The translations under genes were made by a program, and so were the position numbers. Of a DNA stretch of 64,000 nt, positions 3,552-29,850 are shown one piece after another. Numbering within the stretch: the first letter of the stretch is position 1; every line of letters starts with the position of its first letter. The notes beneath the pieces are model-generated. The model ran no database searches. It saw only the letters and a list, made by a program, of their open reading frames with translations, and was not told where the DNA came from. The stretch is from Collimonas sp. PA-H2 (GTDB lineage Bacteria; Pseudomonadota; Gammaproteobacteria; Burkholderiales; Burkholderiaceae_D), in assembly GCF_002564105.1 (NCBI RefSeq), contig NZ_PDBX01000001.1:4650001-4714000 (forward strand), given 5' to 3'.

Positions 3552-4062
3552 TTTCTTGTCAAAACTTTCCCAGGTTACATCGCAGTGCCAGAGGAGTCTA
3601 AGCTGCGCTGGCTAAATTTGCCGGTCCTTAAGAGAGATTGGCAAGACGCAAAAATTGACGGCGGGCGACCCTTGCCGGCGCGCTGCACATTGAATTTGAT
3701 GTTGCCTTGTCAATGATTTTATGACAGCATTGGCCCGGCATTTTTTTGTCGCCGCCGAACCCAGCGTTCGGTATATTTCATTAATTCTTGTCAGCAACCT
3801 AGCCAGGCATTCCTGCCTGCCCTCCGACGCGGTCCAGCGCTGAAATAATCTGCGGTGTAAGCAATGCAAACGGCAATGCGTTATTCTCGATAATTGCCAA
3901 GGGGAAATTGTGTGCTGAATTCAAAGAGATCTTTCTCCCATGCCGAGAGAGCGCAAGCATGACTGCAGATGCTGCCTGTCTTGCATCCTGCTCCGGAGCG
4001 AAACCGTTCCCGGTAAGCGACGCTGCCGGTATCGACACATGTTTAGAAACGAAAGGAAATAG
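3552..4062. other. 511-bp intergenic region upstream of gltS
   Basis: AT-richer than the flanking genes. It holds a perfect hairpin CAGGCA-TTCC-TGCCTG at 3804-3819 without a T-tract and the presumed gltS promoter, which I cannot place with certainty. Short antisense frames here have neutral codon usage and no ribosome-binding sites, so I do not call them. Confidence 0.5.
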
Positions 4063-5268
4063 ATGATTAACTTGGACACCCTGGAAACATTAGTCGCCGC
4101 ATCGCTGGTATTGCTGCTGGGACGCAAGCTGGTGTCTTCTTCCTCGCTGCTGAGAACCTACAGCATTCCCGAGCCGGTGGTGGGCGGCTTGCTGGTGGCT
4201 TTGCTGCTGTTCGGCTTGCGCAGTTTTTCCAATGTCCAGGTGCAGTTCGATAACACCCTGCAAGGGCCGCTGATGCTGGCTTTCTTCGCCACCATCGGCT
4301 TGAATGCCAATCTCGCCAGCCTCAAAGCCGGCGGCAGGACCCTGGCTTTGTTCCTGGGCGTGGTGGTGGGTTTGCTGATCTTGCAGGACACCATCGGCAT
4401 CGGCATGGCGAAGATGATGGGACTCGATCCTTTGATCGGCTTGCTGGGCGCGTCGATTTCCTTGTCGGGCGGGCATGGCACCGGCGCCGCCTGGGGCCGG
4501 GTGTTTTCCGAGCGCCACGGCCTGGCGGCGGCCACTGAAATTGCGATCGCTTGCGCTACCTTCGGCCTGATCCTGGGCGGCCTGATCGGCGGCCCGGTGG
4601 CCGGCTTCCTGGTCAAGCGCGTCAAATTGCCGGGCGCCCAGGCAGCGCCGGCTGACCACCCGCCGTTGAGTTTCGAGCAGCCCAAGGCGGAGCAGCTGAT
4701 TACGCCACAAGCCTTCATCGAAGCGCTGGCCCTGATCGCTGTCAGCCTGTCGGTCGGCACCCTGATCGCCAACCAGTTGAACGGCACGGCGTTTGAATTG
4801 CCGACCTTTGTCTGCGTCCTGTTTGTCGGTGTGGTGCTGAGCAATGGCTTGTCGCTGCTGGTCGGCTACAAGATTTTCGAGCGCGCCATCCTGCTGCTGG
4901 GCAATGTGAGCCTGTCGCTGTTCCTGGCGATGGCGCTGATGAGCTTGCGTCTGTGGGACCTGGCGTCGCTGGCCTTGCCGGTGCTGCTGATCCTGGCGGT
5001 GCAGGCGGCGGCGATGGCAGCTTATGCGGTATTCGTGACGTTCCGCGTGATGGGCAAGAACTACGACGCCGCGGTGCTGGCGGCAGGCCATTGCGGTTTC
5101 GGCCTAGGGGCGACGCCGACCGCGATCGCCAACATGCAGGCGGTGACCGACCGCTTCGGGCCGTCGCCGCTGGCGTTCCTGGTGGTGCCGATGGTGAGCG
5201 CGTTCTTCATCGACATCGCCAATGCGATCGTGATCAAGCTGTTCCTGGCAATGCCGATCTATAACTAA
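4063..5268 (+). CDS. gltS: Sodium/glutamate symporter GltS
   Basis: 401 residues, the standard length of GltS, with about ten hydrophobic segments. Both family signature loops are present: SLSGGHGTGAAWG around residue 136 in the first half and AGHCGFGLGATPTAIANM around residue 345 in the second half, the pair of re-entrant pore loops of the inverted-repeat fold. Predicted to import L-glutamate with Na+ across the inner membrane. The ATG follows AAAGGAAATAG, a good ribosome-binding site. The gene stands alone with a long upstream region; no regulator is next to it. Confidence 0.95.
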   Translation: MINLDTLETLVAASLVLLLGRKLVSSSSLLRTYSIPEPVVGGLLVALLLFGLRSFSNVQVQFDNTLQGPLMLAFFATIGLNANLASLKAGGRTLALFLGVVVGLLILQDTIGIGMAKMMGLDPLIGLLGASISLSGGHGTGAAWGRVFSERHGLAAATEIAIACATFGLILGGLIGGPVAGFLVKRVKLPGAQAAPADHPPLSFEQPKAEQLITPQAFIEALALIAVSLSVGTLIANQLNGTAFELPTFVCVLFVGVVLSNGLSLLVGYKIFERAILLLGNVSLSLFLAMALMSLRLWDLASLALPVLLILAVQAAAMAAYAVFVTFRVMGKNYDAAVLAAGHCGFGLGATPTAIANMQAVTDRFGPSPLAFLVVPMVSAFFIDIANAIVIKLFLAMPIYN

Positions 5269-23929: not shown

Positions 23930-24405
23930 GATGATTTCGGGAGTAGGGTACAACGGCACAGTTTATCCGACTGCCGGATTTTTCGTGCAATGGGCTGGAT
24001 TGCCACAGCCGGAGCCATGTTTCAGGCAGCGAGCAATTTTGGAAATAGCTGGATTTATGCTTGACATGGCTATTCCTTCATCGATAAACTTCGGGCATTG
24101 CATTATATGGAGGTCCATTGTGGACTCTGGTTCTAATAGTAGAAGTGGATGGGCGATCAGCCCGGCACAGCACGCACAGCAGTAGCAGACCTCCCTCCGC
24201 TACGACTCTGCGTACGCCGAGTTGTAGATGCGATCAGCAAGACCGCACTTTAAATCCCCATCCAGTCATTTAATCCGTTTGTTCCGGTTATTCCGACGTT
24301 TCTGCCGTGCAGTGACGAGATTCTTCGCGCCCCCGCGTTTGCGGCTGTGTCCGCGCTGACTGATCGCGTCCCTGCGTTGCCGGATCCCGGTTCGAGGAGA
24401 TTGGC
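23930..24405 (+). other. Long untranslated leader before the mgtA small-ORF series
   Basis: 476 bp. Contains a good plus-strand promoter (24061-24088) and a stem-loop CTACGACTC / GAGTTGTAG at 24200-24227. No convincing ORF longer than about ten codons on the plus strand before 24406. The leader would be unusually long for a single gene. Confidence 0.55.
24061..24088 (+). promoter_or_regulatory. Sigma-70-type promoter for the mgtA leader transcript
   Basis: TTGACA (24061-24066), 16-bp spacer, GATAAA (24083-24088). The -35 is perfect and the -10 matches four of six. It points toward the small-ORF series and mgtA; nothing else on this strand would use it. Confidence 0.6.
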
Positions 24406-24531
24406 ATGGTTCATTTTTCCAGGCACGCCGTTGCCGCCCTACGCTGCATGAGCGCTGTCGCTCGTCCACTCCGCCCACCAGCTGCCGGCTGCTTTTGCTG
24501 CCGCTCCAGTGCGTTTATAAAGGAATGTTGA
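24406..24531 (+). CDS. Leader small ORF 1 (41 aa, cysteine-rich)
   Basis: ATG at 24406 preceded by GAGGAG with a six-base spacing, one of the strongest ribosome-binding sites in the window. The 41-residue product starts MVHFSRHAVAALRCMSAVAR and is basic with five cysteines (GCFCCRSS near the end). No known family. Its stop codon is one base before the ATG of small ORF 2, and its last codons carry the ribosome-binding site of that ORF, so the two would be translated in a coupled way. Confidence 0.45.
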   Translation: MVHFSRHAVAALRCMSAVARPLRPPAAGCFCCRSSAFIKEC

Positions 24532-24532
24532 C

Positions 24533-24622
24533 ATGGACTGTCCCCCCAGTTGTCCCTTACGTAAAACATCTTTAATACGCAAGCAGGGCGCGCAAAGCTT
24601 CCATTTCCAGCCTGTTGCATAG
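24533..24622 (+). CDS. Leader small ORF 2 (29 aa, MgtL-like N-terminus)
   Basis: ATG at 24533 with AAAGGA eight bases upstream. The 29-residue peptide begins MDCPPSCPLRKTSLIR: an acidic residue at position 2 followed by a proline-rich, then basic stretch. This recalls enterobacterial MgtL (E. coli [17 protein letters not shown], from memory), the leader peptide whose translation senses Mg2+ and proline to control mgtA. Here too the ORF is upstream of a Mg2+-transporting P-type ATPase, but 690 bp away with other ORFs between. Homology is not claimed; the resemblance may be convergent or chance. Confidence 0.45.
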   Translation: MDCPPSCPLRKTSLIRKQGAQSFHFQPVA

Positions 24623-24682
24623 TCAACGGCTCTAGTCCGCCGCCTCTGCCTTCGATCACGGTTTTCCTCAGGGAGAACCGCT

Positions 24683-24901
24683 ATGCAAACACGTCTGTCG
24701 AGGCCAATCATGACTATCAAATCATTCATCAACGCTCAGCAACAGCGCATCGCAGGAACGCCATCCAAGGGCTGGACTTTCGGCTGGACTTCTGCCCAGG
24801 CCGCCAGCCATGCACGCCATAACAGTGATGCGCACTCCCGGCAACACCGCCAACCGGCCCAGAGCTATGGCATGTACGGCACGCTGATAAGCGGCCGCTA
24901 A
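24683..24901 (+). CDS. Leader small ORF 3 (72 aa, hypothetical)
   Basis: ATG at 24683 preceded by AGGGAG at eight bases. The 72-residue product is basic, rich in Gln, Ser, His and Ala (SFINAQQQRIAG, SHARHNSDAHSRQHRQPAQS, ending YGMYGTLISGR), with no signal peptide or membrane segment. An internal ATG at 24710 is possible. Its stop codon TAA overlaps the AAGGGA ribosome-binding site of the next ORF. No family recognised. Probably part of one transcript with ORFs 1, 2, 4, 5 and mgtA. Confidence 0.55.
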   Translation: MQTRLSRPIMTIKSFINAQQQRIAGTPSKGWTFGWTSAQAASHARHNSDAHSRQHRQPAQSYGMYGTLISGR

Positions 24902-24910
24902 GGGATCGGC

Positions 24911-25063
24911 ATGCATCATCAATTTCTGAGCGCAAGAAGCGCCGTGCTGCTGGCGCTGCTTGCAGCGCTGGCCTGGTTGTTCATCCTGCTGAACCTGTTG
25001 TCGCCGCTGGCGGCGCACAGCCGGTCGCATGCCTACGTGGCGCCCATCTTCATGCCGCAGTAA
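24911..25063 (+). CDS. Leader small ORF 4 (50 aa single-span membrane protein)
   Basis: ATG at 24911 with AAGGGA five bases upstream. The 50-residue protein has one clear membrane span (VLLALLAALAWLFILLNLLS, about residues 12-31) with a short basic N-terminus (MHHQFLSARSA) and a tail HSRSHAYVAPIFMPQ. Small single-span proteins next to P-type ATPases are known to modulate them (KdpF for KdpABC; MgtR and MgtS for Mg2+ systems), so a regulatory or stabilising partner of MgtA is a reasonable guess. No sequence homology to those proteins is claimed. Confidence 0.62.
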   Translation: MHHQFLSARSAVLLALLAALAWLFILLNLLSPLAAHSRSHAYVAPIFMPQ

Positions 25064-25069
25064 AAGCCA

Positions 25070-25091
25070 GCTCCCGGCCCGTTACGGGAGC
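25070..25091 (+). promoter_or_regulatory. Stem-loop between small ORFs 4 and 5
   Basis: Perfect 7-bp stem GCTCCCG / CGGGAGC with an 8-base loop, no T-tract afterwards. It starts seven bases past the stop of ORF 4 and ends about 25 bases before the ribosome-binding site of ORF 5. Confidence 0.6.
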
Positions 25092-25125
25092 ATCCAACCA
25101 ACCCCTAGCCATTGCAAGGATACAC

Positions 25126-25269
25126 ATGGAAGACGACAGCGAAGGTGGCGATAGGCCGCCCGCTTGGATAGTCAGCGCGATAACCACAGCGGGCGACCCT
25201 CGTCCCAGTTTTTCTACCAACCGAACACGCTTAGCCGTGGCGCGGCAGGGGATAGTATTGTCTGAATGA
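25126..25269 (+). CDS. Leader small ORF 5 (47 aa, acidic/proline N-terminus, overlaps mgtA frame start)
   Basis: ATG at 25126 with AAGGA five bases upstream. The product begins MEDDSEGGDRPPAW and has a basic C-terminal half. Acidic runs and prolines at the very N-terminus are known to destabilise translating ribosomes at low Mg2+ (intrinsic ribosome destabilisation), the principle behind E. coli mgtL. The stop TGA overlaps an ATG at 25266 (ATGA) that is in frame with mgtA, so mgtA translation may be coupled to this ORF. A regulatory upstream ORF is the most likely role; the peptide itself resembles nothing I know. Confidence 0.55.
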   Translation: MEDDSEGGDRPPAWIVSAITTAGDPRPSFSTNRTRLAVARQGIVLSE

Positions 25270-25313
25270 AGACAGGATTTTCCCGTGCCGTCCATGCAGC
25301 ACAGGAAAATCAC

Positions 25314-28079
25314 ATGAACCAGACACCCAAAACCAAAGCGGGCAAGCCCAAGCAGAAGCAGAAAGGATTCATCTCCGGATCCTCTGCGCCGGAACAGAAA
25401 ATCTCGATGCGCGTCGTCGAAGAGTCCGGCAAGCCTATTCAATCGACTTTCAACCGTACCAAAACCTCGCCTTTCGGCCTGTTCAACCATGACGCCGCCG
25501 AACGCCTGCAGCGCTCCGGCCCTAATGAGGTAGCGCACGACAAGGCGCCGCACGCCCTGGTGCAGCTGGCCCTGTCTTTCAAGAATCCCTTCGTGATCGT
25601 GCTGCTGATACTGGCCACCATCAGCTACATCCTCGATGTCCACCTGGCCGTGCCGGACGAGCGCAGCTGGAAGGGCGTGATCATCCTGGTGACGATGGTG
25701 ACCATCAGCAGCCTGCTGCGCTTCTTCCAGGAATATCGTTCGAACAAGGCTGCCGAGCGGCTGAAATCGATGGTGCGCACCACCGCCACCGTGCTGCGCC
25801 GGACCAATGACGCCGCCAATCCCCAGCGCCAGGAAATTCCGATGCGCGAACTGGTGGTGGGCGATATCGTCAGCCTGCAGGCCGGCGACATGATCCCGGC
25901 CGATATCCGCCTGTTTGCCTCACGCGATCTGTTCATCAGCCAGGCGGTGCTCACCGGTGAAGCGCTGCCGGTGGAGAAATACGACACGCTGGGCGCGGTG
26001 GCGCAGAAATCCGCCGACGCCAATCCTGCGCTAGATAGCAAGGCCGACCTGCTCGACCTGTCCGATATCTGCTTCATGGGGACCAATGTCGTCAGCGGCA
26101 CCGCCACTGCGGTGGTGGTAGCCACCGGCGCTAATACCTATTTCGGCTCGCTGGCCGAGAATGTGGTCAGCCACAAGCGCATCGAAACCAGTTTTGACCG
26201 TGGCGTCAGCAGCGTTTCCTGGCTGCTGATCCGTTTCATGCTGGTGATGGTTCCCATCGTCTTCATGATCAATGGCGTCACCAAGGGCGACTGGATGTCG
26301 GCGCTGACCTTCGCGCTGGCGGTGGCGGTCGGGCTGACGCCGGAAATGCTGCCGATGATCGTCTCGGCCAACCTGGCCAAAGGGGCGATGGCGATGGCGC
26401 GCCGTAAGGTGGTGGTGAAGCGCTTGAATTCGGTGCAGAACTTCGGCGCCATGGATGTGCTGTGCACCGACAAGACCGGCACCCTGACCCAGGACAAGAT
26501 CATCCTGGAGCGCCACCTTGACATCAGCGGCAACAAGGATGAAAGCATCCTGCAGCTGGCGTGGCTGAACAGTTTTCACCAGAGCGGGCAAAAGAACCTG
26601 ATGGATATCGCCATCGTCAGCCATGCCGACGAGCGCGGTCCGGCCGCCAAGCTGCTGCAATACAGCAAGATCGACGAGATGCCCTTCGACTTCGTGCGGC
26701 GCCGTTTGTCGGTGATCGTCGAGGACCAGGCCGGTGCGCAGTTGATGGTGTCCAAGGGCGCCGTCGAAGAAATGCTGGCGGTATGCAGCCACGCGCAAGA
26801 AGGCAGCGAGGTACGCCCGCTGGACGCTAAGGCCCGTACCGCACTGCTGGAACAGGCGCGCGAATACAATGAAGAGGGTTATCGGGTATTGATCGTCGCC
26901 ACGCGCCAGATCGATGCCGCTCACGCCAAGGTGCAGTACAAGACCGAAGATGAAGCCAACCTGGTGGTGCGTGGCTTCCTCACTTTCTTCGATCCGCCCA
27001 AGGATTCAGCGGCGCCGGCCATCCGCGCCCTGCAGGAATACGGTGTGGCAGTCAAGGTGCTGACCGGCGATAACGCCATCGTCACGCTCAAGGTCTGCCG
27101 CGATGTCGGTCTCGATCCCGGCACGCCGCTGGTCGGCCAGGAAATCGAGGCCATGTCCGAGCAGCAGCTGAACGAGGCAGTCAAGTACACCACCGTGTTC
27201 GCCAAACTGACGCCGCTGCAGAAATCGCGCGTGGTCAAGGCGCTGCAGGCCAATGGCCACACCGTCGGCTTCCTCGGCGACGGCATCAACGACGCGCCGG
27301 CCTTGCGCGACGCCGACGTCGGCATTTCGGTCGACAGCGGCGCCGATATCGCCAAGGAAACCGCCGACATCATCTTGCTGGAAAAGAGCCTGATGGTGCT
27401 GGAAGAAGGCGTGGTCAAGGGCCGCGAGACCTTCGGCAATATCCTCAAGTACCTGAACATGACGGCCAGTTCCAACTTCGGCAATGTGTTTTCGGTGCTG
27501 GTGGCTTCCGCCTGGCTGCCGTGGGAACCGATGCTGGCGGTGCACTTGCTGATCCAGAATCTGATCTATGACATCTCGCAGATGATGCTGCCATGGGACA
27601 AGATGGATGAAGACTTCCTCAAGAAGCCGCGCAAATGGGATGCCGGCAATATCCGCCGCTTCATGATCTGGATCGGCCCGACTTCGTCGGTATTCGATAT
27701 CACCACTTATATCCTGATGTGGACCGTGTTCGGCGCCGGCGCGATGTACGCGGCAGATGGCGGCAGTGCCGGCCAGAGCATCATGAATTCCGGCTGGTTC
27801 ATCGAAGGCCTGGTGTCGCAGACGCTGGTGGTGCATATGCTGCGCACCCGTAAGATTCCGTTCATCCAGAGCACGGCGGCATTGCCGGTATTGCTGTCGA
27901 CCGCGATTGCCATCGGCATCGGCTGCTACCTGCCGTTCTCGCCGCTGGCGGCATCTATCGGCTTCGTGGCGCTGGACACATCGTACTTCTACTGGCTGAT
28001 CGCCACCATGGTCGGCTACATGATCCTGGCGCAAACTGTGAAGACCATCTATATCCGCCGTTACGGGCAGTGGTTCTGA
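25314..28079 (+). CDS. mgtA: Magnesium-translocating P-type ATPase MgtA/MgtB type
   Basis: 921 residues from ATG 25314, which has CAGGA seven bases upstream; the frame also has an ATG at 25266 overlapping the stop of small ORF 5. P-type IIIB signatures: LTGEALPVEKYDT, the phosphorylation motif CTDKTGTLTQDK near residue 386, KVLTGDNAIVTLKVC, and the hinge VGFLGDGINDAPALRDADVG. The N-terminus is lysine-rich (KTKAGKPKQKQK). About ten membrane segments. Known role: ATP-driven Mg2+ import into the cytoplasm under Mg2+ limitation. The long small-ORF leader suggests post-initiation control. Confidence 0.95.
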   Translation: MNQTPKTKAGKPKQKQKGFISGSSAPEQKISMRVVEESGKPIQSTFNRTKTSPFGLFNHDAAERLQRSGPNEVAHDKAPHALVQLALSFKNPFVIVLLILATISYILDVHLAVPDERSWKGVIILVTMVTISSLLRFFQEYRSNKAAERLKSMVRTTATVLRRTNDAANPQRQEIPMRELVVGDIVSLQAGDMIPADIRLFASRDLFISQAVLTGEALPVEKYDTLGAVAQKSADANPALDSKADLLDLSDICFMGTNVVSGTATAVVVATGANTYFGSLAENVVSHKRIETSFDRGVSSVSWLLIRFMLVMVPIVFMINGVTKGDWMSALTFALAVAVGLTPEMLPMIVSANLAKGAMAMARRKVVVKRLNSVQNFGAMDVLCTDKTGTLTQDKIILERHLDISGNKDESILQLAWLNSFHQSGQKNLMDIAIVSHADERGPAAKLLQYSKIDEMPFDFVRRRLSVIVEDQAGAQLMVSKGAVEEMLAVCSHAQEGSEVRPLDAKARTALLEQAREYNEEGYRVLIVATRQIDAAHAKVQYKTEDEANLVVRGFLTFFDPPKDSAAPAIRALQEYGVAVKVLTGDNAIVTLKVCRDVGLDPGTPLVGQEIEAMSEQQLNEAVKYTTVFAKLTPLQKSRVVKALQANGHTVGFLGDGINDAPALRDADVGISVDSGADIAKETADIILLEKSLMVLEEGVVKGRETFGNILKYLNMTASSNFGNVFSVLVASAWLPWEPMLAVHLLIQNLIYDISQMMLPWDKMDEDFLKKPRKWDAGNIRRFMIWIGPTSSVFDITTYILMWTVFGAGAMYAADGGSAGQSIMNSGWFIEGLVSQTLVVHMLRTRKIPFIQSTAALPVLLSTAIAIGIGCYLPFSPLAASIGFVALDTSYFYWLIATMVGYMILAQTVKTIYIRRYGQWF

Positions 28080-28185: not shown

Positions 28186-29373
28186 ATGAAAGTTTTATTG
28201 AGCATCATAGGCGGCAGCTGCGCATTGGCGTTTTCTCCTGTAGTCCAGGCGCAAACCGAGATTCCTGTCAGCGAAAAGAAAGCCGCTGCACCAAGCTCCG
28301 TAGTGTTTTATGGCGTGCTGGATGCCGGCGTCACCTTCGTCAATAATGAAGGCGGGCACGGCAATACCAAGCTGGACACCGGTGTGATGGAACCGAACCG
28401 CTGGGGTGTCAAGGGCGTGGAAGACCTGGGCGGAGGGCTGAGTGTCGTGTTCCAGTTGGAGAGTAGCTTCAACCTGGACGATGGTTCCTTGTCCTCGCCA
28501 GGCACGATGTTCGACCGGGTGGCGATGGTCGGCCTCGCTAACCGCTACGGGCAAATAACCTTTGGCACCCAGTACGATCTGATCAACGACTATGTCACGC
28601 CTTTCAACATCAGCGCCGGCGCCAGCGGCTACGCCGCGCACCAGGGGAATTTCGACCGCATTGCCGGCAATGCCATCCAGCGCTCGATCAAGCTCGCCAG
28701 CGCCGATTTCAAGGGACTGACCTTTGGCGCGCTGTATTCATTTGCCGACAAGAGCTTGCATCCGGACGAAAATGACAGCGAAGGCGCCGGCAGCGGCACG
28801 GCCTGGAATATCGGCGCCCGCTATGCACGCGGCCCGTTTTCCGCCGGCGCTGCCTACATGCGGCTGAACACGCCGCGCGGCACCCAGGCGATCGGACCTT
28901 ATCCAAGCCTGGGCCTGACGCATTTCCTCGGTCAGCCGACCTTTGTCATCGATGCCGAAAGCGGCGAGCGCGTTCCGTTCAAGAACATGGCTATCGACAG
29001 CCAGAAGATCTTCGCCATCGGCGCCGCCTATGAAATAGGGAACCTGACCGCCATGGCGAATTTTGCGGATATCGAGTTCCGCGGCTATGGCCAGGCATCG
29101 GATCTGCGCCTGCTGGAAATCGGCGGCCGCTACCATCTCAGTGCGGCGCTGGACGGTACGCTGGGCTATCAGCGCATGCATTTCGAAGGCACCAAGGCGA
29201 ACCAGATTTCGCTGGGGCTGGATTACCACTTGTCCAAGCGCAGCGATCTGTATGTGTCAGCGGATTACCGGCGCGCGTCGCGCGGGGTGAATGGCGTCAT
29301 CGGCAATTCGTTTGCACCGTCCAGCAATAGTACGCAGAGCCTGTTACGGGTGGGGATGCGGCACGTGTTTTAA
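28186..29373 (+). CDS. Gram-negative porin (OmpC/Burkholderia type)
   Basis: 395 residues. Signal peptide of about 22 residues (cleaved after VVQAQ). Mature start SVVFYGVLDAGVTFVNNEGG, then MEPNRWGVKGVEDLGGGLSV and ATF-like FDRVAMVGLANRYGQITFGT, the standard beginning of 16-stranded betaproteobacterial porins. Terminal beta-strand ends LLRVGMRHVF with the C-terminal phenylalanine needed for outer-membrane insertion. Forms trimeric diffusion channels. It lies between mgtA and the GlcNAc operon, in the opposite direction to the latter; a role in sugar entry is possible but not shown. Confidence 0.93.
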   Translation: MKVLLSIIGGSCALAFSPVVQAQTEIPVSEKKAAAPSSVVFYGVLDAGVTFVNNEGGHGNTKLDTGVMEPNRWGVKGVEDLGGGLSVVFQLESSFNLDDGSLSSPGTMFDRVAMVGLANRYGQITFGTQYDLINDYVTPFNISAGASGYAAHQGNFDRIAGNAIQRSIKLASADFKGLTFGALYSFADKSLHPDENDSEGAGSGTAWNIGARYARGPFSAGAAYMRLNTPRGTQAIGPYPSLGLTHFLGQPTFVIDAESGERVPFKNMAIDSQKIFAIGAAYEIGNLTAMANFADIEFRGYGQASDLRLLEIGGRYHLSAALDGTLGYQRMHFEGTKANQISLGLDYHLSKRSDLYVSADYRRASRGVNGVIGNSFAPSSNSTQSLLRVGMRHVF

Positions 29374-29391: not shown

Positions 29392-29850
29392 GTCATCTGG
29401 GGTCGGAGTCGACTTTCGCGGCGCTTTATCGCGAAACTCGACTCCGACCCCACATGACGGATTCGGAGAAAGACGGTGCGCATTCGCGATTTTTTCTCTA
29501 ACGATGAGGCATACACTCCATGGCCCGCTAAGTGGGGTCGGAGTGAAGTTTCTGCAAAAAGCGCGCAGAAAGTTCACTCCGACCCCAGTTAGCTACGTGT
29601 ATCAGGTGCGACGAAAACCAGGTGACGGTTTTATCGTGTTTTATGAGTCATCTGGGGTCAGAGTCGACTTTCGCGGTGCTTTATCGCGAAAGTCGACTCT
29701 GACCCCACATGACGGATTCGGAGAAAGATTCGGCGCACTACTTGGTTTTATTTTCCAACACCGAGGTATGTACTCCGTAGCCCGCTAAGTGGGGTCGGAG
29801 TGAAGTTTCTGCAAAAAGCACGCAGAAAGTTCACTCCGACCCCAGTTAGC
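29392..29850. repeat. Array of four REP-type hairpins (two tandem pairs)
   Basis: Four elements at 29392-29458, 29527-29593, 29647-29713 and 29784-29850. All have a TGGGGTCRGAGT / ACTCYGACCCCA stem. Elements 1 and 3 have an inner stem CTTTCGCG / CGCGAAA and GTCAT flanks; elements 2 and 4 have TTTCTGC / GCAGAAA and GCTAA / TTAGC flanks. The pair 1+2 is repeated as 3+4 with a period of about 256 bp. The same family occurs at 19777 and 55273. The array fills the 517-bp gap between the convergent porin and SIS genes, where no gene is seen. Confidence 0.9.

Follow-up and report, generated by a model that had tools for sequence, protein, structure and literature searches.

A candidate magnesium-responsive leader before mgtA in Collimonas sp. 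PA-H2, with two putative regulatory reading frames and small-protein genes

The question raised by this locus is what a leader of 1.2 kb, filled with small open reading frames (ORFs), does in front of the gene for a magnesium transporter. The locus lies in a window of 64,000 nucleotides (nt) of Collimonas sp. PA-H2 (assembly GCF_002564105.1, contig NZ_PDBX01000001.1, positions 4,650,001 to 4,714,000), and coordinates below are those of the window. The gene is mgtA, at 25314, and its product is an MgtA-type Mg2+ ATPase that matches TIGR01524 (ATPase-IIIB_Mg) over its full length, with 1298.2 bits against a cut-off of 610.75. The initial annotation listed five plus-strand frames before it, ORF1 to ORF5, and these are confirmed with their places, start codons and purine-rich sites: positions 24091-25320 hold five ATG or GTG ORFs of at least 29 codons behind a Shine-Dalgarno sequence (SD), whereas 500 dinucleotide shuffles average 1.1 and reach five in 3 cases; the reverse strand has three. 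A sixth frame, here named ORF0, had gone unnoticed.

The answer proposed here is that the region probably serves as a built-in device for magnesium control. We give a probability of about 60% to a Mg2+-responsive leader that would contain two regulatory upstream ORFs (uORFs), ORF0 and ORF5, together with protein cargo; these two frames are most likely the sensor parts. The evidence established by sequence comparison is the ORF0 element and the genes that it accompanies, its covarying hairpin, the core of its peptide, and the constrained RNA that runs from ORF5 into mgtA.

ORF0 has 21 codons and the site GGAGG, and sits in an element of about 140 nt directly behind the promoter:

24061..24090, plus strand: promoter-like site TTGACA-18-TAAACT (10/12 match; TTGAC also upstream of related elements)
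24092..24232, plus strand: ORF0 leader element (covariance models R1 and R2, 152 and 133 bits; the sequence is a training member)
24109..24115, plus strand: SD of ORF0, GGAGGTC, complementary to GACCTCC at 24188-24194
24120..24185, plus strand: ORF0, GTG start, VDSGSNSRSGWAISPAQHAQQ, DSCSS-type leader peptide (leader comparison, peptide alignment)
24200..24227, plus strand: terminal hairpin CTACGACTC...GAGTTGTAG (9 of 10 pairs with a compensatory change in 39 sequences)

The features by which the element is defined are all found in this copy, namely a match to R2, a DSCSS-type peptide after an SD, and a covarying terminal hairpin. The copy was itself used in training; support for the family comes from independent hits. 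The site at 24061-24088, described initially as a good promoter, is by itself at chance level (1 found, 0.7 expected), but TTGAC lies within 50 nt upstream of 17/17 related elements, compared with 4.9% of 5100 random 50-nt stretches from the same loci, so that the element probably starts at the 5' end of the transcript.

Seven Collimonas mgtA leaders were aligned in full length. They form clade A (the window, C. humicola, and the genomes G005 and G007) and clade B (OK607, OK307 and C. antrihumi); the nearest named relatives of the window genome are C. humicola, C. antrihumi and two Collimonas sp. Orthologues of mgtA with at least 88% identity are present in 7 of 15 Collimonas genomes, its own counted; among the other eight, the best match is just a paralogue of about 55% identity in seven, and one lacks any match. 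The most conserved part of the leader is the first 190 nt or so behind the promoter, and the region of ORF0 is constrained at synonymous sites too. In clade B the ORF0 peptide reads VDCSSNSRSGWVISPAQxA.

Across the wider family, the hairpin that follows the frame is supported by covariation. In 39 sequences, aligned without use of structure, its cells are paired in 90.6% of cases, compared with 75.8% when shuffled and 24-52% when the hairpin is slid, and there are 75 double changes against 24.2 in shuffles. For the other comparisons, one of two matches at locus L273 and identical stretches were dropped, which reduces 56 rows to 53 for the hairpin between SD and start considered below; L259 and identical 24-nt starts were also left out for the peptide, giving 44 distinct copies. 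The start codon in these is TTG in 22, GTG in 16 and ATG in 6. Residue 2 is D in 33 and G in 10, residues 4 and 6 are C and S in 30 each, and residue 5 is Ser in 37, coded by TCN in 29 and by AGY in 8. Most peptides have 11-26 residues, and the core D-S-C-S-S is kept. Over codons 2-10 of the Burkholderia peptide the proportion of nonsynonymous differences (pN) is 0.05 and that of synonymous differences (pS) 0.14; for Burkholderia and Pandoraea together the values are 0.09 and 0.28.

The element is found before several kinds of gene. In 13/15 Collimonas genomes the start of the leader also has a match elsewhere than at mgtA. Model R1, built from 17 ORF0 elements and one mgtC leader, finds three places in its own genome at an expectation value (E) of at most 1, before mgtA, a small-protein operon and mgtC, all three types being in the model. 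Its independent copies lie before mgtC in another genus, before one Nramp gene (L231) and before one OprB gene (L228); weak copies lie before the mgtA paralogue, before an ORF3-like frame with a NicO gene (L199), and before mgtA of Chromobacterium and Paraburkholderia. R2 is the R1 model with those copies added, and it finds a fourth place in its own genome, upstream of the mgtA paralogue and likewise a training member. With strict filters, R2 finds the element in 26 of 300 genomes of the order. There are 24 places outside the own genome and G003, and 20 of them, none in training, were inspected: the first sizeable gene behind the match codes for MgtA in 7, OprB in 6, Nramp in 4, MgtC in 1 and an ABC permease in 1, and one match is false. 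In three of the six OprB cases (L265-L267) MgtA follows OprB.

R2 was also run on 73 of 80 mgtA-type loci, four Collimonas loci and L037, L039 and L040 being left out. It gives 43 matches at E of at most 1 (one of them, L038, a training member), and 42 of the 43 are located 5' of mgtA and share its strand. Among these are 26/26 Burkholderia and 7/8 Pandoraea loci, none in training. In six compared loci (L045, L046, L047, L049, L066, L078) the match covers a previously noted frame, MN[ST]DAS.. Aeromonas mgtA loci give no match, and in a search of 369 genomes of the class, also with strict filters and with few members of the order listed, the own genome is the sole match; the element thus looks limited to Burkholderiales.

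Several observations on individual loci may be recorded here. In one other genus of the same family the element heads mgtC (L192, L193, L194, L195, L229), and in 4/5 of these loci it is followed by a separate gene that is similar to the C-terminal domain of MgtC. At L275, a locus headed by ORF0, mgtA is followed, right from its end, by a full MgtC gene (3652-4365), with both PF02308 and PF21770. L199 (G249:C118) has the element, an ORF3-like frame of 75 amino acids (aa), a second, weaker match to the element, and a NicO-family gene (Pfam E 7e-12). OprB-family porins lie directly behind the element at L265, L266, L267, L263, L271, L280 and L228, and are possible Mg2+-linked outer-membrane porins; the Nramp-family transporters behind it at L270, L276, L277, L279 and L231 are candidate Mg2+-linked Nramp proteins. 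An Nramp-related Mg2+ transporter is described in PMC4072509.

A compact element before metal transport genes might also be a metal-binding riboswitch, which would sense Mg2+ or another divalent ion directly, with ORF0 merely the first frame under its control. The length of about 140 nt, the strongly covarying hairpin and the position before Mg2+ and other metal transport genes suit such an RNA, as does the ability of the ORF0 SD to pair with the downstream GACCTCC, and there is a precedent in the M-box of Mycobacterium tuberculosis (Mtb), described with a conserved uORF in PMC12810186. We nevertheless consider it unlikely. Identity with a known Rfam RNA is rejected, as no Rfam family, M-box included, is matched at its gathering score in 15000-36000 and no relevant match appears at E of at most 5 in 24000-25350. 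Moreover, the first codons of the peptide are conserved in the residues that they encode, which an aptamer alone would not need, and covariation is clear in one helix only.

Behind the element come four of the frames listed initially:

24406..24531, plus strand: ORF1, remnant of a gene, now deleted, for a protein like the MgtC C-terminal domain (leader alignment, clade comparison)
24533..24622, plus strand: ORF2, MDCPPSCPLRKTSLIRKQG... (N-terminus conserved, tail not, frameshift in G005)
24710..24901, plus strand: ORF3, conserved 63-aa small protein, MTIK...GWTFGWTS..QA...YGMYGTL (alignment, pN/pS)
24911..25063, plus strand: ORF4, conserved protein of 50 aa that has a single hydrophobic stretch, judged by eye (alignment, pN/pS)

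The five frames had been presented as a chain; all are present, but they are not equal in standing. At the position of ORF1 the clade B leaders carry about 325 nt extra, part of a gene of about 149 codons that is missing in clade A. ORF1 consists of the start and first codons of this lost gene followed by a frame-shifted tail, its frame is split in C. humicola, and it is rejected as a conserved gene. In ORF2 only the first 19 codons or so are kept, and G005 has a deletion of 1 nt; the frame is half degenerate and its role doubtful. ORF3, ORF4 and ORF5 are open in 7/7 leaders, although the first codon of ORF4 is ATT in OK607. The search for frameshifts and stops in relatives, proposed with the initial annotation, thus goes against ORF1 and ORF2 but not against the other three. 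The conserved start of ORF3 is ATG 24710; the start first assigned, 24683, is not conserved among the leaders and is rejected. A sub-threshold match to the shuA thermometer hairpin lies just before the ATG at 24683, at 24661-24685 (28 of 58 bits, E 0.13).

The suggested comparison of substitution rates favours ORF3 and ORF4, for which pN is below pS in every pair of leaders, with ratios of 0.10-0.66 for ORF3 and 0.23-0.79 for ORF4 (0.27-0.49 in 17/21 pairs), and mostly 0.25-0.66 over the two; pS between clades is 0.48-0.71. By this comparison both are coding and behave as protein genes under protein-level selection. No significant homologue of either is found upstream of mgtA outside Collimonas among 80 loci (best E 0.75 and 0.91), and there is one ORF3-like match in another genus (G249).

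These frames are shared with the small-protein operon that stands apart from mgtA. All ten Collimonas loci of this type that were read have an ORF0-like peptide, then a protein of 130-134 aa, then ORF2-, ORF3- and ORF4-like frames, in the same order; the ORF2-like frame begins MDCSSCP or MDCPSCP, and no relative of MgtA is seen in the ten stretches. The 130-134-aa protein reaches 25.4, 24.1 and 22.3 bits with Pfam MgtC_SapB_C (PF21770; E 2e-5), where the cut-off is 27 bits, and its alignment matches PDB 7qa5, 'Protein MgtC', with E 1.2e-4. Relatives of this protein from other genera of the family immediately follow an MgtC-like gene, assigned by resemblance, in 9/11 loci. A similar frame is present in 8/8 Pandoraea mgtA leaders (median pN/pS 0.21) and in Chromobacterium mgtA leaders, where the scores are insignificant. 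A search for cargo genes behind the 20 inspected loci gives one weak match only, at L272, which has an MgtC of its own.

The last part of the leader joins ORF5 to mgtA:

25126..25269, plus strand: ORF5, acidic-start uORF MEDDSEGGDRPPAW... (47 aa in all 7 Collimonas leaders)
25139..25203, plus strand: long hairpin over ORF5 codons 5-26 (7 leaders, nearly invariant, one compensatory pair)
25259..25325, plus strand: hairpin pairing the mgtA SD AGGAAAAT (25303-25310) with GATTTTCC (25276-25283) (consensus fold, one compensatory pair)
25314..28079, plus strand: mgtA, Mg2+-translocating P-type ATPase (TIGR01524 score and leader alignment; start 25314 preferred over 25266)

ORF5 begins MEDDSEGGD in 4/7 leaders and MEGDSEGSD in 3/7. 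Its synonymous sites hardly vary, with pS of 0.02-0.22 against 0.48-0.71 for ORF3 and ORF4 between clades, so that the RNA is constrained; the ratio pN/pS alone is no proof that ORF5 is coding. In the consensus fold of the seven leaders AGGAAAAT/AGGAGAAT is paired with the GATTTTCC region, which would sequester the mgtA SD, and the outer stem TGTCTGA/CAGACA spans the mgtA start; in single-sequence folding the SD is partly open (0.27-0.66 unpaired). The ORF5 stop does overlap an ATG in the mgtA frame (25266), as first described, in the window and in C. humicola, but the other five leaders have GAATAAA there. The start of mgtA is for this reason most likely 25314, and 25266 is rejected; a TAG in the frame 5' of the conserved start in G007 (L004) agrees with this. 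Elsewhere around the locus, a flavin-reductase-like gene upstream of the leader is transcribed away from mgtA, and a Gram-negative porin gene (Porin_4) lies behind mgtA on the same strand, at 28186-29373. In the intergenic stretch of about 29400-29830 the ORF translations look alike on both strands when judged by eye, probably owing to inverted repeats, and relatives show a similar inverted repeat.

Acidic uORFs such as ORF5 are common before mgtA. With an SD and within 1.1 kb upstream, they occur in 65/79 mgtA-type loci (one of 80, with less than 500 nt upstream, was dropped) and in 13/24 genus-level groups. Among the controls, they occur in 11/79 of the loci when these are reverse-complemented and in 5.7% of 383 control windows, and the number predicted by shuffling is 3.55. 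The criterion, at least two D or E in residues 2-7, was set after seeing the sequences, and 26 of the 79 loci are from Burkholderia. The starts include MNSDDSSR in Burkholderia, MDDGSSR in Pandoraea, MPEEPEP in Chromobacterium, MTEEPKP in Aeromonas, MEDDGST in Achromobacter and MDDDSRS in Leucobacter. In the Burkholderia frame of 51-52 codons, pN is 0.06 over codons 2-10 and 0.17 in the rest.

It is worth adding that four of six Chromobacterium mgtA leaders (L036, L038, L039, L106) have two separate MPEEPEP frames, and that the actinobacterial mgtA-type loci L095, L098, L099 and L100 have SD-preceded acidic ORFs (MSDDHSR, MEDGHSR, MDDDSRS) 250-430 nt upstream.

The selection on ORF3 and ORF4 would also suit a small-protein operon that came by chance to lie upstream of mgtA, with regulation from the promoter only, by a two-component system or another regulator, and the ORFs as cargo. 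Their presence in the free-standing operon, behind the same element and with no MgtA following in the ten stretches, favours this. We regard it as somewhat less probable even than the riboswitch, in view of the constraint on synonymous sites at both ORF0 and ORF5, the occurrence of ORF0 before other genes that lack the cargo, and the recurrence of acidic uORFs before mgtA in other genera. That the frames are chance ORFs in GC-rich non-coding DNA is highly improbable: it is refuted for ORF0, ORF3, ORF4 and the ORF5 region, both by the excess over shuffles and by conservation over seven genomes and, for ORF0, ORF3 and ORF4, over paralogous loci, and it holds still for the tail of ORF1, whose frame is indeed not conserved.

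The reading that we prefer, a Mg2+-responsive leader with two regulatory uORFs and protein cargo, would place the 1.2 kb before mgtA at the 5' end of a single transcript and divide it into three layers. In the first, the 5' element, with its SD, usually non-AUG start, short peptide and hairpin, most likely acts as a Mg2+-responsive, translation-dependent attenuator. The second would be the small-protein genes shared with the free-standing operon, from which the protein resembling the MgtC C-terminal domain has been lost, leaving ORF1; the ORF2, ORF3 and ORF4 proteins would probably be made under Mg2+ limitation. For the role of the small proteins, the small regulators MgtS and MgtR are possible parallels. 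In the third, ribosomes may leave the early acidic codons of ORF5 when Mg2+ is low, and translation of mgtA would be altered, as for MgtQ. That the leader responds to Mg2+ seems to us quite likely. That it does so through ribosomes on ORF0 and ORF5, which would fall off or move differently over the first codons and thereby alter hairpin formation and, with it, read-through or initiation, is put forward tentatively, at slightly less than even odds. The initial suggestion of a translational Mg2+ sensor with small partner proteins fits this scheme as an idea, but its parts are now assigned differently: the sensors are likely to be ORF0 and ORF5, ORF3 and ORF4 are protein genes, ORF1 is a remnant and ORF2 is doubtful. 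In Collimonas pratensis a Mg2+-importing P-type ATPase, which may be a different gene from the mgtA of the window, is reported to be up about fourfold when Mg and Fe are left out of the medium (PMC12542777).

A number of results weigh against this reading. The pairing between the ORF0 SD and GACCTCC, with all 7 pairs intact in 15/17 Collimonas copies, has two breaks and no compensatory change, and so is not proved by covariation. The small hairpin between the ORF0 SD and the start is weakly supported, since 44 of 2000 shuffles are as good. No terminator behind the terminal hairpin is listed in a terminator scan, so that any termination there would have to depend on Rho. Most ORF0-type peptides have just one acidic residue close to the start, and in 10/44 residue 2 is Gly, so that destabilisation of the ribosome is not obvious for ORF0. 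Under constrained folding no consistent change appeared that would represent a switch between ORF5 and mgtA. In the other MgtA subfamily 11 leaders were examined, and no acidic uORF as defined above is present in any of them. With strict filters the element was not found in most genomes (present in 26/300 in the order search and 1/369 in the class search), and among the 20 inspected matches one is followed by an ABC permease gene and three by OprB genes in stretches where no MgtA is seen.

Beyond this locus, the element may be a new Mg2+-sensing, translation-dependent element of Burkholderiales, composed of a D-S-C-S-S nascent peptide with a mostly non-AUG start and a covarying hairpin, which would coordinate a regulon for Mg2+ and other divalent metals with a small-protein operon; Collimonas mgtA would add an MgtQ-like uORF in the same transcript. 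We judge the chances of this to be evenly balanced. The proposed regulon comprises mgtA, mgtC, Nramp, OprB porins in an operon with mgtA, and the small-protein operon with its MgtC-C-terminal-domain-like protein. In open PMC full text we found neither the ORF0 element nor a leader-level description of intracellular Mg2+ sensing in Burkholderiales. If one element marks the genes of MgtA, MgtC and Nramp proteins, it would delimit a Mg2+ regulon by sequence and point to the Nramp proteins and porins that act on Mg2+. It would also connect Mg2+ limitation with small proteins, among them the stand-alone ones that resemble an MgtC domain, and ORF0 would offer a nascent peptide for testing ribosomal Mg2+ sensing outside enterobacteria.

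It remains to compare the locus with known systems. The cargo of the free-standing operon and of the clade B mgtA leaders resembles the MgtC/SapB C-terminal domain (PF21770), scoring just under the Pfam cut-off; unlike that domain, the Collimonas cargo stands alone, without a membrane part, and it is deleted in the window. In the mgtA leader of E. coli and Salmonella, MgtL has early acidic codons, and Mg2+-dependent ribosome drop-off controls mgtA, as described in PMC11282234; the destabilisation of ribosomes at low Mg2+ by early acidic residues, for MgtL in E. coli, is described there and in PMC9718836. ORF5 is likewise a short predicted uORF with early acidic codons in an mgtA 5' leader. It differs from MgtL in having no EPDP motif and 47 codons, in overlapping a hairpin and adjoining the hairpin that holds the SD, and in being preceded by the ORF0 element and protein genes. 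MgtQ, a uORF of the Salmonella mgtC-mgtB region at which low-Mg2+ ribosome destabilisation frees the mgtB SD (PMC8092293), shares with ORF5 an acidic start directly 5' of a Mg2+ ATPase gene whose SD lies in a hairpin. Unlike ORF5, it has 8 aa and lies inside an operon, after mgtC, and its 2:3 alternative pairing did not emerge from folding of ORF5. By its sequence, then, the anatomy of ORF5 is of the MgtL/MgtQ kind. The leader of Salmonella mgtCBR, which holds mgtM and mgtP (PMC3641672), is similar in that a long leader of a Mg2+ operon has more than one uORF, although these respond to ATP and proline. The Mtb leader (PMC12810186) is a Mg2+-gene leader with a conserved small ORF, uORF2 (Rv1805A), that is duplicated elsewhere in the genome; it has an M-box aptamer, whereas none is matched in the Collimonas leader. 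The view that a chain of uORFs before a Mg2+ ATPase is undescribed has to be qualified in the light of mgtM/mgtP and mgtQ: uORF-controlled Mg2+ transporter genes are already known, and the part with no counterpart found in open PMC full text is the ORF0 element.

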